From Akkermansia sp. RCC_12PD (GTDB lineage Bacteria; Verrucomicrobiota; Verrucomicrobiia; Verrucomicrobiales; Akkermansiaceae), in assembly GCF_036417355.1 (NCBI RefSeq), contig NZ_CP143889.1, forward strand, positions 2,914,001-2,978,000: a DNA stretch of 64,000 bases, read 5' to 3'. Position numbers and translations under genes: made by a program. Position 1 is the first letter of the stretch; every line of letters begins with the position of its first letter. The notes beneath the pieces were generated by a model, which had not been told where the DNA came from, ran no database searches, and worked only from the letters and a program-made list of their open reading frames with translations. Positions 16,958-51,287 of the stretch are shown piece by piece.

Positions 16958-18007
16958 ATGGAACAAGAAACTCTGGTTTATCCTCTTGCAGACAATACCG
17001 TCCTGCAAGGCAAATACACGATCCTGAATGTACTCAACGCCGGCGGCTTCGGCATCACCTACCTGGCGCTGGACAATCCGAATTCCCGCTATGTGGTCAT
17101 CAAGGAATGCATGCCTGACGCCTATGCCTACCGGGACATGGAAACGGGTTTCGTCCACCCGCGGGACGAGCAGACCGCCGTCAACTTCGCCCAGAGCATT
17201 TCCAACTCCCGGCAGGAGGCATCCGTGCTGGCCCAGCTCAGCCACCCCGGCGTCGTGCAGGTGTTTGACATGTTTGACGCCAACGGCACCTGCTATTACG
17301 TCATGGAGAATATCCAGGGGCAGACTCTGTTCGATCTGATGGCTGCCATGCACGCTACCGGGCAAAGCATGGAGCCGGCCCGGGCCACGGACCTGCTGTT
17401 CCGCCTGCTGGATATCCTGCACTACCTGCATTCCATGGGCGTGTACCACTGCGACATCAAGCCGGGCAACATCTTCATCCAGCCGGACGGCACACCCAAG
17501 CTGATCGACTTCGGCGCGGTGCGCACCAAGACCCTCCAGCACCAGGGCCTGGTCCAGATCACTCCCGGCTACACGCCTCCGGAATTCTATCCGGGACGCC
17601 GCAGCGAAATCGGTCCCTGGTGCGACATGTACGAACTGGGAGCCACCTTTTACGAATTGCTCACGGGCCAGGTTCCCCAGGCCGCCGACCAGCGTTCCGT
17701 AGTGGACCGCAATCCGAAAGTGACCAGTTATGCGATTCTCCGCCAGACGTACCCGATGAATTTCCTTTCCGGGATAGACAAGGCGCTTTCCCCCGACGAA
17801 CGCAACCGCTTCCATTCCGCCAAGGCATGGCATGACTACATCAACGCCATGGGAGCGGCGGGAACCCTGAAAGCGGGGGGAGTGGCCAGAAAAACCCTTC
17901 CAAAGGCGCAGAAAAAGTCATCCGCCGGGACCGCCTTTCTGATCATCCTCCTCATTGTGGGGGCAGTTCTCTGGGTCTGCTGGAAACAGGGGCTGATCCA
18001 ATTTTAA
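16958..18007 (+). CDS. Hanks-type serine/threonine protein kinase, membrane anchored
   Basis: 349 residues. Kinase landmarks are complete: glycine-rich loop NAGGFG (about 28-32), Lys49 in VVIKE, Glu87 in the C helix, catalytic loop HCDIKPGN (Asp166, Asn171), and DFG at 184-186. The HRD arginine is replaced by Cys, as in non-RD kinases. A hydrophobic segment near residues 325-343 anchors the kinase in the membrane, leaving only about five residues beyond it, so there is no external sensor domain. The next two genes encode exported proteins of unknown function and may be functionally linked. The N-lobe resembles the start of the protein at 47250. Confidence 0.92.
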   Translation: MEQETLVYPLADNTVLQGKYTILNVLNAGGFGITYLALDNPNSRYVVIKECMPDAYAYRDMETGFVHPRDEQTAVNFAQSISNSRQEASVLAQLSHPGVVQVFDMFDANGTCYYVMENIQGQTLFDLMAAMHATGQSMEPARATDLLFRLLDILHYLHSMGVYHCDIKPGNIFIQPDGTPKLIDFGAVRTKTLQHQGLVQITPGYTPPEFYPGRRSEIGPWCDMYELGATFYELLTGQVPQAADQRSVVDRNPKVTSYAILRQTYPMNFLSGIDKALSPDERNRFHSAKAWHDYINAMGAAGTLKAGGVARKTLPKAQKKSSAGTAFLIILLIVGAVLWVCWKQGLIQF

Positions 18008-46413: not shown

Positions 46414-47061
46414 ATGAAACCCGGCATACTGGCACTAGCATCCTTCGGTATCATCTTCGCCTCCTGCACTCAGTACAACAGGCCGCCCCTTTTTGATAAA
46501 ATTGCGGACAGAGTACGCGGCAACGGGCAGAAAGACGCTTATCTGGCAGGCGTCGGCTCCACGGCGGGCGTCAATACGGAAATCCCGCCGGAGGCACGGC
46601 TGGGCCAGGGTTACTGGGACAAGCCCGCCGGCATTCAGGGCGAACCCCACATCATCATTGACCTCAAGCAGCAGAAAGTCTTCTACTACGTGGGAGCCAC
46701 GCTGGTAGGAATTTCCCCCATGTCCTCCGGCAAGGAAGGGTACGGCACCCCCAAGGGGACCTACAAGATCATCCAGAAGGACGCCAACTACAAGTCAGGT
46801 ACCTACGGGGTACTGCGCAGCCGGGCGACCGGGGCCGTCGTAAACAGCGACTACAACGCCAGAGCCGGTTCCACGCCTGCGGGAACCTACTTTGACCCGG
46901 CTCCCATGCCCTACTGGATGCGCATCACGGGAGGCTACGGAATGCACGTGGGCTTCGTGACCGGGTACCCGGTCAGCCACGGGTGCGTGCGGCTGCCTGC
47001 GGATATGGCCAAGACCTTCTTTGAAAACACGCCTCTCGGCACCAAGGTAACCATCCGCTGA
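46414..47061 (+). CDS. L,D-transpeptidase (YkuD) lipoprotein
   Basis: 215 residues. A short signal sequence ends in a lipobox (IIFASC), so Cys17 should be lipidated and the protein held in the outer or inner membrane facing the periplasm. The YkuD catalytic motif is complete: MHVGFVTGYPVSHGCVRLP, with His, Ser-His-Gly and the nucleophile Cys near residue 192. Such enzymes make 3-3 peptidoglycan cross-links or attach proteins to the wall. Given the odd class A PBP at 60977, L,D-cross-linking might matter here (inference). A modest hairpin terminator follows. Confidence 0.92.
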   Translation: MKPGILALASFGIIFASCTQYNRPPLFDKIADRVRGNGQKDAYLAGVGSTAGVNTEIPPEARLGQGYWDKPAGIQGEPHIIIDLKQQKVFYYVGATLVGISPMSSGKEGYGTPKGTYKIIQKDANYKSGTYGVLRSRATGAVVNSDYNARAGSTPAGTYFDPAPMPYWMRITGGYGMHVGFVTGYPVSHGCVRLPADMAKTFFENTPLGTKVTIR

Positions 47062-47249: not shown

Positions 47250-50165
47250 ATGACAAACCAGCAAATTTCCCCTTTGCCGCCCCATTTCAACGCAGGCAGC
47301 TATAAAATTACAGCCGTTCTGGAAAACGGGCCGGACTATTATTTATACCAGGCCGTGTCCCCGGAAGGGCAAACGGTGCTGATGCGTGAATTCTGCCCCG
47401 CCGGACTGGCCACCCGCGACATGGTCAGCGGCAACCTGACCGTTTCCCCGGAAAACCAGGCGCAATTCGACCAGGCGCGGGAAGCCTTTGAAGCCCGCTG
47501 CTCCGTGAACGCCCAGGGAAAACTGCGGGGGTTCGGCACCGTCTTCTTCGTTTATCCGGCGGTTCCGGCTCAGGAACAGCCTCCCGTGGCGGCGGTAGCG
47601 CACGCCCAGGCCCTGCGCCCGGCCAAAAAAACGCAGCCGCAAATCCGCAAGCCCATAGCCGGAACAGCCGTTCCCAGGGCCCCGCTGCCCAAATTGAAGA
47701 AATCCGGCGGCTTCCCCGTCATCACGGTCATCGTCACCGGGATGCTGGCCCTGTTTGGATTCCTGGGATACCAGATTCTCAAGGACAAGGAGGCGCCCCT
47801 TGCCCCGAAGATTGAAACACCCGTGGTGGCGGCGCCCAAGCCCAAACCCAAGCCCGAGGCTCCCAAGCCGGAACCGGTCATCGTGGAACCGGAGCCGGAA
47901 CCCGAGCCCATCGTCGTGGCGCCGGAACCGGAGCCGGAACCTGAAGAGCCGGCTCCGGACCTCTCCCCTTCCCCGGAAGTCATCGCCATGGAAAAGGCAA
48001 TCCGGGAAGAGGCCCTGGCATCCAAAGGGAAATTCACGGAAAAGCTTCTGGATAAATATCCCTACTATGCGGAAGCCTACGTGCGCGATTACGTGAAAAA
48101 GCGCGGCGGCTCCTTTTCTCCCGAATTTGAAAAATGGCTGAAGAACACGAAGACCAACCGTGAAGTCTTTGCGATGTTCTATCCGCCGGACCCCAGCGTA
48201 GCCACGAACGTCGCGATCATGGTGGATGAGCTGGGACTGGAAATGACGGAAAAGTACAACCAGCTCGTCCTGGCCTTCGCCGTGGGACGCCGTGAATTCG
48301 GCATGGGCGCCTTCGACCTCACCCAGCAGGGCCGCTACATCGACGCCCTGGGCAAGCTCAGGGAATTCAAGAACTCCGGCATCATGACCTCCCCCGCGGA
48401 CCTGTACTGCGCGGGCAAGCCTCCCGTCAACTGGTACGGTTCCTCTCCGCGGATGGTGGACGAGGAACTCTATAAAAAGGTGGAGACTTATCTGGACAAC
48501 AAGAAAATAACGACCAAGCAAGCCTGGATCAACAAGTACAACACTGTCTCGGAAATCGGGGACGAAGGCATTACCCAGGGCAACATCGCCGCATTCCTTC
48601 ATGAATACATGTACCGCCACAACCAGTTGAGGCGCAAGCGCGATCCGTTCCCCACCCCCGTGGAATTCTTCACCTACCTGGTGGACAAGTACGAAAACTG
48701 CAGCAAGTTGCGGGATGTAGACCGCAAACGGGTGGAATGGACCGGGGTTTCCCTGGAAGGGACGCCCTGGCCGGCCATGATGGCTCTTTCCGAAACGCGG
48801 CCCCTGCGGGAATGCGACAGCGTATGGGAACGCTACATGGGCCATCGCGGCCCGACGCGCCTGTGGCTGTACGGTCCCTACCGCATGGACGACGACAAGG
48901 AGCCCCCCATCCTGTTCAGCTTTGACCCGGATCCCGAATGGTCCCGTGAATCCAACGAACGCAAGCTGCATGAAGGCGGCGTCTGCGGCACGATGTCCCT
49001 CATTTCCCGCAATTCCCAGATTGCCCGCGGCATCCCTGCCGCCCCGGCGGGCCAGCCCGGCCACGGCAACCTGATGACGACCAACTTCGGCGGCAACGGC
49101 TGCTGGCTAAGCGTAGGCCAGAGCGTAGACACCCTCAAGGCCACCACAGGCTTCTGGTACCTGCGGGACTCCAAGGCGGCGCGCACGGGCAACGCCGAAT
49201 ACCAGTCCGGCCTGGCCCTGTCCATGAACATCGACTATGAAAAATTCATCGGCAGCCGCTTCGCCATGAACGTTTACAAGCTGGCGGGAGGAAACTCCTC
49301 CGCGGAATCTTCCGGAGAGATTGCGTCCAACGCGCTTCCGCAGGAATTTACCAAGACAGCCATGAGGACCATTATTAAGGACAATCCGTTCTATACGGAA
49401 GCCTGGTACACGCTGTTCCAGACGGAGCCGCAGGACCTCATGGGCGCCAGAAAAATGGTGGAGGAAGTGCGTGAAGCCCTGCCGGACGGCATGGGGATCA
49501 GAAAACTCTGGAAAACGCGCAAATACGTTTCCTCCGTGGGCCGTGGCGACAAAAAGGGCAAGGACATCCTGGCCAATCACACCAAGGAATACGTCAACGT
49601 GCTCTGCTCCGTGATTCTGGAAAACGCCCTGAAACAGGACAACGAATACAAGACCTTCCAATGGGCGGAACTCATGTCCTGGCTCAAATCCGAATCCAAG
49701 GACAACTCCTATCCGGAACCGAAGGCCGCCTACCAGATCGCCTACGCCAAGGCTCAGGGAACCGACCGGCTCAAGAGAACGGTGGACCGCGGCTTCAAAA
49801 AAGCAGTCAATTTCTACCGGGACGACAGCAACGCGCTGGCCGCTCCGAAAGACGTGGACCAGCAGGACATGTCCTTCTCCCTGGACGCCCTGTGCATGGT
49901 GCTCCCCAAGGACGAGCTGATCCCCTGGATGAAGGAAATGCTGGACACCTGCCCGGATGGCTTCAAGTACAAGCCCAAGAACAAGAAGGAAACGAAAATC
50001 CACCCCTTCTACAGCGCCCTGACCAAAAACTACATGTCCCTGGTTGACGGCTCGGAGAAATCCCGCATCAAAGGGGAAATGAAAAAGGCTTCCGAAAACA
50101 TCCTGAACCTCTCCAACAATAAGGGAGAAGGAAAGGAATCTTCCGGCCGCCGCCGGAGACGCTGA
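47250..50165 (+). CDS. Large membrane protein with a kinase N-lobe-like cytoplasmic end
   Basis: 971 residues. Residues about 16-80 align by eye with the N-lobe of the kinase at 16958: SYKITAVLENG against KYTILNVLNAG, and VLMREFCPAGLATRD against VVIKECMPDAYAYRD, with the ATP-binding Lys replaced by Arg. No catalytic loop or DFG follows. A membrane helix lies at about 155-175, then a linker rich in PKPKP and EPEPEP (about 185-232) that would span the periplasm. A roughly 700-residue external region of unknown fold ends in a basic SSGRRRRR tail. Probably a pseudokinase-derived anchor or receptor. hemW follows 12 bases later. Confidence 0.82.
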   Translation: MTNQQISPLPPHFNAGSYKITAVLENGPDYYLYQAVSPEGQTVLMREFCPAGLATRDMVSGNLTVSPENQAQFDQAREAFEARCSVNAQGKLRGFGTVFFVYPAVPAQEQPPVAAVAHAQALRPAKKTQPQIRKPIAGTAVPRAPLPKLKKSGGFPVITVIVTGMLALFGFLGYQILKDKEAPLAPKIETPVVAAPKPKPKPEAPKPEPVIVEPEPEPEPIVVAPEPEPEPEEPAPDLSPSPEVIAMEKAIREEALASKGKFTEKLLDKYPYYAEAYVRDYVKKRGGSFSPEFEKWLKNTKTNREVFAMFYPPDPSVATNVAIMVDELGLEMTEKYNQLVLAFAVGRREFGMGAFDLTQQGRYIDALGKLREFKNSGIMTSPADLYCAGKPPVNWYGSSPRMVDEELYKKVETYLDNKKITTKQAWINKYNTVSEIGDEGITQGNIAAFLHEYMYRHNQLRRKRDPFPTPVEFFTYLVDKYENCSKLRDVDRKRVEWTGVSLEGTPWPAMMALSETRPLRECDSVWERYMGHRGPTRLWLYGPYRMDDDKEPPILFSFDPDPEWSRESNERKLHEGGVCGTMSLISRNSQIARGIPAAPAGQPGHGNLMTTNFGGNGCWLSVGQSVDTLKATTGFWYLRDSKAARTGNAEYQSGLALSMNIDYEKFIGSRFAMNVYKLAGGNSSAESSGEIASNALPQEFTKTAMRTIIKDNPFYTEAWYTLFQTEPQDLMGARKMVEEVREALPDGMGIRKLWKTRKYVSSVGRGDKKGKDILANHTKEYVNVLCSVILENALKQDNEYKTFQWAELMSWLKSESKDNSYPEPKAAYQIAYAKAQGTDRLKRTVDRGFKKAVNFYRDDSNALAAPKDVDQQDMSFSLDALCMVLPKDELIPWMKEMLDTCPDGFKYKPKNKKETKIHPFYSALTKNYMSLVDGSEKSRIKGEMKKASENILNLSNNKGEGKESSGRRRRR

Positions 50166-50177
50166 GTTCTCCGCCCC

Positions 50178-51287
50178 GTGCATCTTTACGTCCACATTCC
50201 CTTCTGCCACCGCATTTGCCCGTACTGTGCGTTTTTCAAGCACACGCCGGCTTCCACGGACATGAAGCTCTTCATCCGTGCGCTGGCGCGGGAGGCGGAA
50301 GCCCGCGCCGCAGCGCTGTCAACCAGGCGCGGCGGCGAGGCTTCCACGCTCTACTTCGGAGGAGGGACGCCCTCCATGCTGTCGGACACGCATCTGGGGA
50401 ACCTCATGGAATCCCTGGATAGGCTGATCCCCGTGGACAGCCTGGACGAATTCTCCTTTGAAGCCAATCCGGCCACCTTTACGGAAAAAAAAGTCCGCTT
50501 CTGGCGCAGCCTGGGCATGAACCGCGTTTCCCTGGGCGTTCAATCCCTGGACGCCCGCATCCTGCGCCTGCTGGGCCGGGAACACACGCCGGAACAGGCC
50601 CTCCGCTCCGTGGACATGCTCAACAACGCCGGAATGCCCCACGTCAACATGGACCTTATGTTCGCCATTCCGGGGCAAAGCCTCTCCGTCTGGGAAAATA
50701 CGCTAAAGGAAGCCGTTCGGGCCGGAACGGACCACATCTCCGCCTACAACCTCACCTATGAGGAAGATACGGAATTCTTCCGCAGCCTGTCCCGCGGAGA
50801 AAAAATCCAGGACCCGGACGAGGACGCGGCCTACTTTGAACTGGCGGAAAACATTCTGGAAGCCGCGGGAATGCGGCATTATGAAACCTCCAATTACGCC
50901 AGGGAAGGCGCGCGGTCTCCGCATAACATGGCCTACTGGAAGGGGGAGGACTATGTAGGCATCGGCCCCGGCGCGGTCAGCACCATCGACGGCGTGCGCT
51001 ACTCCAACACACGGAACACGGAAACCTACATCCGCACCACACTGGAAAACGGCCTGCCGGAATCCGAACGGGAACCCGTCACTGCGGAAGACTACCGCCT
51101 GGAGCGCATCGCCCTGATGCTCCGTACGGACGAAGGGCTTCCTTTGAAATACCTTCTGCCGGAAGCCCTGCCCCTGCTGGAACGTTACCGTTCTCTGGAA
51201 CTGGCGGACGTCTCCGCGGAACAATGCCTCATCCTGAAAGGCCGCGGCCGCCTGCTGGTGGACGCCATCGCCGCGGAATTGTGCTGA
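50178..51287 (+). CDS. hemW: Radical SAM heme chaperone HemW
   Basis: 369 residues from a GTG start at 50178. The radical-SAM 4Fe-4S motif is Cys10, Cys14, Cys17 (PFCHRICPYCAF), spacing CxxxCxxC. TLYFGGGTPSML (about 55-67), NRVSLGVQSLD and YNLTYEEDTEF are family blocks. Earlier annotated as oxygen-independent coproporphyrinogen III oxidase-like; characterised homologues insert heme. The second Cys typical of true HemN (CxxCxC form) is absent, favouring HemW. Probably cotranscribed with the preceding gene. Confidence 0.92.
   Translation: MHLYVHIPFCHRICPYCAFFKHTPASTDMKLFIRALAREAEARAAALSTRRGGEASTLYFGGGTPSMLSDTHLGNLMESLDRLIPVDSLDEFSFEANPATFTEKKVRFWRSLGMNRVSLGVQSLDARILRLLGREHTPEQALRSVDMLNNAGMPHVNMDLMFAIPGQSLSVWENTLKEAVRAGTDHISAYNLTYEEDTEFFRSLSRGEKIQDPDEDAAYFELAENILEAAGMRHYETSNYAREGARSPHNMAYWKGEDYVGIGPGAVSTIDGVRYSNTRNTETYIRTTLENGLPESEREPVTAEDYRLERIALMLRTDEGLPLKYLLPEALPLLERYRSLELADVSAEQCLILKGRGRLLVDAIAAELC

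Follow-up and report, generated by a model that had tools for sequence, protein, structure and literature searches.

What use is half of a kinase domain to a membrane protein? The question is raised by a gene in a 64,000-nucleotide stretch of the Akkermansia sp. RCC_12PD genome (contig NZ_CP143889.1, positions 2,914,001 to 2,978,000; hereafter, the window), whose 971-residue product carries the N-terminal lobe (N-lobe) of a kinase without the C-terminal lobe (C-lobe), followed by a membrane helix, a linker and a large external domain. A sequence-only reading of the window had proposed that this "half-kinase" is a partner or substrate anchor of an intact kinase encoded at position 16958. Below, we describe the evidence that the N-lobe is genuine, conserved and restricted to one clade of Akkermansia proteins, and weigh what it may do. 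The parts of the gene are as follows:

47250..50165, + strand: half-kinase gene, 971 amino acids (open reading frame [ORF] list)
47271..47564, + strand: kinase N-lobe without a C-lobe, residues 8-105 (hidden Markov model [HMM], hhalign, AlphaFold2, PpkA fold match)
47376..47420, + strand: beta-3 motif V-x-x-R-E-x-x-P-x5-R-D, V43-D57 (alignments)
47565..47708, + strand: juxtamembrane segment, residues 106-153 (sequence)
47697..47711, + strand: KKSGG directly ahead of the membrane helix, differing by one residue from the KKSSxG-like pattern seen in the 16958 kinase
47709..47777, + strand: membrane helix, about residues 154-176 (hydrophobicity)
47778..47969, + strand: PKP/EPEP linker, residues 177-240 (sequence)
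47970..50162, + strand: external domain, residues 241-971, mostly helical (AlphaFold2 model of residues 236-971)
48975..49115, + strand: GGVCG...GIP...PGH core with C579 and H605, a helix and three strands (alignments, model)

Homology and predicted fold of the N-terminus

Residues 8-105 are homologous to the N-lobes of PpkA-like Ser/Thr kinases, both in descent and in fold. The homology is visible by profiles only, because direct BLASTP comparison of the 971-residue protein with the 16958 kinase is not significant (E-value of 0.10). When compared profile to profile with hhalign, 13 half-kinase N-termini (alignment A1) match four kinase N-lobes (A2) with a probability of 96.8 and an E-value of 2.5e-10. 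An HMM built from 11 kinases, with no half-kinase included, assigns 36.1 bits to the window segment; among 2000 shuffles of that segment, 1564 were reported and the maximum score was 6.9 bits. The same kinase-only HMM scores at least 13.1 bits in 20/20 half-kinases. Searched against PDB, the A1 profile has its best match in the kinase domain of PpkA (E-value of 0.006) and also matches one designed protein (E-value of 1.4); a phmmer search of PDB with all 971 residues returned nothing useful.

The fold was predicted with AlphaFold2 from residues 1-111 and 20 half-kinase rows (A4), with kinase rows excluded. The model (predicted local distance difference test [pLDDT] 88.1; predicted template modelling [pTM] score 0.79) contains a sheet of five strands and a single helix; the strands span residues 18-26, 30-36, 42-48, 90-94 and 97-103, the helix spans residues 67-84, and short strands lie at 54-56 and 63-65. 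The top two Foldseek matches of the model are PpkA entries (best E-value of 1.9e-5, query TM score of 0.78), and in VIA-align PpkA (5hnv) scores a Z of 14.0 with a root-mean-square deviation of 1.9 over 105 aligned residues, the best non-PpkA row having a Z of 10.0. Both the model and the joint alignment described below place the exit of the chain from the kinase fold after beta-5, and the C-lobe is absent.

The sequence-only reading had noticed the resemblance over residues 16-80; the profiles, including the profile-profile comparison that it had called for, bear it out over a wider extent, and the predicted sheet and helix, nearest to PpkA, are the fold whose absence it had named as a refutation of the half-kinase interpretation, which the model therefore supports. 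Its description of the remaining features also stands: the motif at V43-D57 matches V-x-x-K-E-x-x-P-x5-R-D in the 16958 kinase, the ATP-binding Lys at the beta-3 position is Arg, a catalytic loop is absent, and the membrane helix and linker lead to about 730 external residues. The paralogue with another ectodomain, the single clade, the confinement to part of one genus and the Cys/His core of the external domain, all described below, go beyond that reading.

Residues lost and kept

Loss and retention of residues were read from a joint alignment that places 10 half-kinases alongside kinases and pseudokinases. Both the GxGxxG loop and the VAIK Lys are missing in 10/10 half-kinase rows, with His or Ile at the beta-3 Lys position in two half-kinases other than the window protein. 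The alpha-C Glu is substituted in nine of the 10 rows (by Arg in the window protein; the half-kinase at locus L068 retains Glu), and a segment of about 10 residues spanning HPxIV is absent. Beyond the N-lobe, no match to the HRD or DFG pattern was found in the half-kinase ORFs. In contrast to these losses, E47, F48, P50 and R56 are invariant in 20 half-kinases (A4), as are the alpha-C Phe and a Gly-Thr turn. The retained residues look structural, and ATP binding by the half-kinase N-lobe is unlikely. Judged by sequence, the half-kinase is a pseudokinase in the sense of kinase homology with catalytic residues lost, but not in the sense of keeping both lobes.

Distribution and origin

Half-kinases form one clade that is confined to part of the genus Akkermansia and heads two unrelated ectodomains. 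Of 76 Akkermansia genomes, 15 yield strong matches (E-value below 1e-25), which comprise 29 proteins: 16 of the type found in the window (971 type) and 13 of a second type (1480 type). In the genome under study, the paralogue (G000:C1, about 2626-2631 kb) bears a PDZ and a DUF6288 ectodomain (PF19805; E-value of 3.8e-37, 128.9 bits vs a cut-off of 26.3). The two types are found together in 13 of the 15 genomes. No 1480 type is present in genomes G144 and G100, the former has two tandem 971-type half-kinases (L053:4710-10549), and the 1480-type gene of G178 reads as two frames. None of the 12 near orthologues of the window gene (itself included) has an internal stop, and G144, G100 and G148, which are more diverged, show the same architecture free of stops. 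Identity among 971-type proteins falls as low as 42-45 per cent.

Other genera were searched with half-kinase profiles, which an N-lobe-only protein of another kinase lineage could escape. These searches gave no match at E-values up to 1e-6 in 244 genomes representing 16 genera of the family or in 387 genomes representing 197 genera of the phylum, each set being a sample of a larger group. Within the genus, weak matches to the half-kinase profiles (E-values of about 1e-11 to 1e-2) were inspected in part, and those inspected turned out to be fragments, kinases, or pseudokinases that retain parts of a C-lobe. Short N-lobe ORFs in G173, G157 and G150 were considered as further half-kinases and rejected: those fetched from the first two genomes sit at a contig end, and the G150 ORF comes from an interrupted kinase that retains the glycine loop and Lys.

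Genus-wide searches by ectodomain, which are independent of the N-lobe, recovered 16 full-length 971-type ectodomains and 13 DUF6288 proteins, and the genes of all 29 carry the N-lobe. Weaker relatives that share the GGVCG core alone are without it, even within the genus (L057-L062, of which one comes from G100). When 82 ORFs of at least 300 amino acids were scanned (the window protein and 81 ORFs at 31 loci with ectodomain relatives), the window protein was the sole N-lobe match; for DUF6288 outside the genus, the check covered 14 loci drawn from 100 genomes with matches. Many of the ectodomain relatives start with an apparent signal peptide, as judged by eye.

In a tree of 45 N-lobes, 13 half-kinases lie on one side of a branch with a support of 100/100, and six pseudokinases are scattered among the kinases. 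The half-kinases thus probably arose once and were duplicated afterwards. The parent kinase cannot be named from this tree, in which the half-kinase branch has a length of 1.75.

Selection on the N-lobe

The N-lobe is under purifying selection, most strongly in the 1480 type. Ratios of nonsynonymous to synonymous substitution rates (dN/dS) were estimated by the Nei-Gojobori method from 12 orthologues of the 971 type, 11 of the 1480 type and nine of the 12 orthologues of the 16958 kinase, the filter having demanded CDIKPGN where three orthologues have CDIKPSN. For the 971 type, dN/dS is 0.217 in the N-lobe, 0.200 in the juxtamembrane segment, 0.027 in the membrane helix, 0.192 in the linker and 0.124 in the ectodomain; the corresponding values for the 1480 type are 0.093, 0.300, 0.236, 0.345 and 0.105, and the N-lobe of the 16958 kinase has 0.074. 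The low value of the 971-type membrane helix was considered as a special feature and dismissed: 148 of 949 windows of equal length are as low in the proportion of nonsynonymous differences (pN), and the helix of the paralogue is not similarly low.

A possible partner kinase and the alternatives

The kinase to which the sequence-only reading had linked the half-kinase has the following features:

16958..18007, + strand: candidate partner, intact PpkA-like kinase with an HCDIKPGN loop (Pfam Pkinase, E-value of 2.5e-35; sequence)
17912..17929, + strand: KKSSAG juxtamembrane motif of the 16958 kinase

N-lobe pairing activates PknD and PknB allosterically (PMC3601408, in part), and residues specific to the MviN pseudokinase family cluster at the N-lobe pairing interface (PMC12599244, in part). 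By analogy, the half-kinase N-lobe, which the predicted topology places in the cytoplasm, would work as a non-catalytic docking piece and pair with the N-lobe of an intact kinase in the manner of PknB and PknD. The state of the periplasmic domain would then be coupled to kinase activity through this pairing, with sensing and catalysis on separate proteins. The best candidate partner would be the 16958 kinase, which by its sequence has a C-terminal membrane helix and no ectodomain. We favour docking to an intact kinase because a stand-alone N-lobe is what activating N-lobe pairing needs; that such docking takes place, most probably at the 16958 kinase, is quite possible, if short of probable. 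The fuller model would be one of split receptor kinases in Akkermansia, in which N-lobe-only co-receptors with exchangeable periplasmic domains switch an ectodomain-less catalytic kinase via N-lobe pairing and a shared juxtamembrane motif. This model is tentative and somewhat doubtful.

Two observations are consistent with a partnership. As the co-occurrence check suggested by the sequence-only reading reveals, orthologues of the 16958 kinase (at least 53 per cent identity) are present in exactly the 15 of 76 genomes that have half-kinases; the match in G148 crosses one stop, yet a 348-amino-acid ORF with a membrane helix exists there. Additionally, among 237 distinct transmembrane (TM)-like segments from 507 ORFs of the loci examined, the pattern [KR][KR][SAN][SGA]xG precedes the membrane helix in 18, which are 11 half-kinases, seven 16958-type kinases and no others. 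(The ORFs for this count and for the one given below were picked mechanically, spurious ones included.) The same distribution and the similar motif favour the reading of the half-kinase as partner or anchor, yet both can follow from shared descent.

Several points weigh against the 16958 kinase as partner. The shared distribution may reflect one event in one clade, and of these 15 genomes, 12 also contain likely relatives (by length only) of a second kinase of the own genome (near 2297377). A single clade, and a distribution nearly matched by another kinase, make co-occurrence weak evidence. Genome G145 is without a half-kinase but encodes an HCD kinase, a more distant one (47 per cent). The half-kinase and kinase genes are 29 kb apart in the window and at least 150 kb apart in G063, G047, G119 and G038. 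The juxtamembrane pattern was defined after viewing the sequences, and the rows are related. When 400 kb of the own genome and the window are considered, the pattern is found in three of 353 TM-like segments, one of which belongs to the 16958 kinase. The 971-type proteins nearest to the window protein, and the window protein itself, have KKSGGF or KRSGGF, one residue off the pattern, and the kinase of G144 does not match it. The half-kinase profile scores other kinases, which are without the motif, above the 16958 kinase. Finally, the 971-type N-lobe evolves faster than its own ectodomain and is the least constrained of the five parts of the protein.

The last point would be expected if the N-lobe were a passive anchor, that is, a leftover fold that merely caps the helix on its cytoplasmic side and dates from the acquisition of a kinase N-lobe, juxtamembrane segment and membrane helix by a secreted protein. 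The checked ectodomain relatives manage without an N-lobe, many of them with an apparent signal peptide, which also fits this explanation. It is nevertheless doubtful, given the retention of the N-lobe on 29/29 ectodomains recovered from the genus by the ectodomain searches, down to the lowest identities between 971-type proteins, and the 1480-type N-lobe being as constrained as its ectodomain (0.093 vs 0.105). The N-lobe could instead be a dimer piece that joins 971-type to 1480-type proteins, with the kinase uninvolved. The occurrence of both types in 13 of 15 genomes is consistent with this, as is the location of the two genes within about 4 kb of each other at loci L045 and L047, and in bacterial kinases, as in the MviN pseudokinase, N-lobes dimerise (PMC12599244, in part); the lack of the 1480 type in G144 and G100 speaks against such pairing, which we consider unlikely. 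Alternatively, the half-kinase would be a substrate, whose juxtamembrane Ser in the basic KKS motif is phosphorylated by the 16958 kinase upon recognition of the N-lobe or the motif. In both proteins basic residues and then Ser stand ahead of the membrane helix, but basic residues are expected in that position anyway and G100 has KKAGAG, without that Ser; this explanation is quite unlikely.

Two further explanations concern the missing C-lobe. A C-lobe from another gene could complete the fold, as in the likely composite HipA of Legionella, whose N-lobe and C-lobe are on two genes (PMC9758233, in part). Like the half-kinase, the split HipA has an N-lobe encoded without a C-lobe, but its C-lobe is the adjacent gene, and none was found here. 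A composite kinase is very improbable: the glycine loop and Lys are lost, and all eight PF00069 matches in the own genome (E-value up to 1) include an N-lobe (five by profile range, three by eye), although a very divergent orphan C-lobe could escape. That a broken gene or an assembly error removed the C-lobe is refuted by conservation: even though kinase genes with internal stops occur in the genus, the architecture is free of stops in the 12 near orthologues and in the diverged G144, G100 and G148, and dN/dS is low.

The external domain

The AlphaFold2 model of residues 236-971 has a pLDDT of 83.8. In it, C579 of GGVCG opens a helix and H605 of PGH stands before a strand. A Cys at the start of a helix and a His ahead of a strand is the arrangement of transglutaminase-like enzymes. 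The core Cys and His are invariant in 17 rows (A3) and in 18 rows (A5), many of which were selected by GGVCG. Specifically, the A5 rows were picked by GGVCG and then GxP, which dropped the second G144 protein, and PGH was not a criterion. Because of this selection, the invariance of Cys is partly by choice, and that of His alone is a free observation. Pfam Transglut_core matches one of 18 core segments, weakly (E-value of 0.015). The best Foldseek match of the external domain is unrelated (E-value of 0.08), the best VIA match (Z of 7.7) lies on the C-terminal helices, away from the core, and a profile of the core against PDB finds 4fgo, a periplasmic protein, with an E-value of 2, ranked below a chance match with an E-value of 0.16. 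Since these fold searches yield no trustworthy match, the transglutaminase idea rests on anatomy, and the Cys/His core is perhaps transglutaminase-like.

At four of the six loci of GGVCG-family relatives that were read (L057, L059, L061 and L062), the gene next to that of the GGVCG-family protein encodes a product of about 405-430 amino acids with a similar start, possibly as a conserved pair.

Neighbouring genes and other kinase-like proteins

The half-kinase gene is flanked by:

46414..47061, + strand: upstream neighbour, L,D-transpeptidase (YkuD; Pfam E-value of 1.5e-19)
50178..51287, + strand: downstream neighbour, radical SAM protein (Pfam Radical_SAM)

The downstream neighbour is presumably HemW-like, and by gene order a similar gene also lies downstream of a half-kinase in G144 and G148. 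The 971-residue protein itself matches no Pfam family at E-values up to 10, and so neither PF00069 nor PASTA, and NCBIfam yields nothing near any cut-off. Among ten ORFs scanned near the gene, none is recognisably part of a type VII secretion system.

Elsewhere in the same genome, a further PpkA-like kinase gene has an internal stop in the C-lobe (G000:C1:2326079-2326756, L004); stop-free kinases of about 547 amino acids in G028 and G144 may be its relatives. A 580-amino-acid protein (L008, G000:C1:2109692-2113117) combines a degenerate kinase domain, in which no HRD was seen by eye, with a membrane helix and a C-terminal part that is discoidin-like by eye. Two nearly alike 408-amino-acid kinase-like proteins are encoded at L006 and L007, one of them adjoining a protein that is VWA-like by eye, an arrangement that we take to be that of TerY-P modules. 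In other Akkermansia genomes, pseudokinases with C-lobe remains and no HRD were found at L069, L070, L080, L081 and L086; four of them have Arg or Tyr at the VAIK Lys, and some adjoin intact kinases. Sets of PpkA-like kinases, counted as matches to the window kinase at E-values up to 1e-40, number at least 27 in G124, 17 in G165, 16 in G161 and 13 in G173.

Relation to known systems and significance

The half-kinase has the N-lobe fold of PpkA-type Hanks kinases (PDB 5hnv, 5x1r), but is without their C-lobe, glycine loop and VAIK Lys and adds a large external domain. With receptor kinases of the PknB/PrkC kind it shares a kinase fold, a membrane helix and an external domain, but it lacks the catalytic lobe and, by Pfam, PASTA domains. 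In EssB/YukC and MviN pseudokinases, as here, a kinase fold is present without catalysis, and EssB/YukC is a membrane protein with a cytoplasmic pseudokinase scaffold; both keep the whole kinase domain, whereas the half-kinase is without the C-lobe (PMC12599244, in part). The order of parts in EssB/YukC (cytoplasmic pseudokinase, one membrane helix, external part) matches that of the half-kinase, a likeness by layout alone in which the orientation of the half-kinase is the predicted one. The 16958 kinase, for its part, is likened by architecture only to YabT, a kinase that lacks an external sensor and whose membrane helix is C-terminal (PMC6333020, in part). Membrane pseudokinases such as EssB/YukC and receptor kinases are thus already known, and the N-lobe-only version differs by the absence of the C-lobe. 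In our search of the open-licence literature, neither a transmembrane family of the N-lobe-only kind nor any study of an Akkermansia pseudokinase turned up, and the bacterial pseudokinases met there have a whole kinase domain. The abstract, the outline, section 14 and parts of the remaining text, mainly of section 4, of a review of bacterial pseudokinases (PMC12599244) do not name an N-lobe-only family.

Conservation of an N-lobe-only family in a common gut bacterium, with two unrelated external domains attached, would demonstrate that an N-lobe by itself can be retained for a non-catalytic function. N-lobe pairing, which has been described for the self-activation of kinases, would become directly testable as signalling in trans. 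If true, split receptor kinases would be a modular, non-catalytic route by which one kinase is given several inputs.

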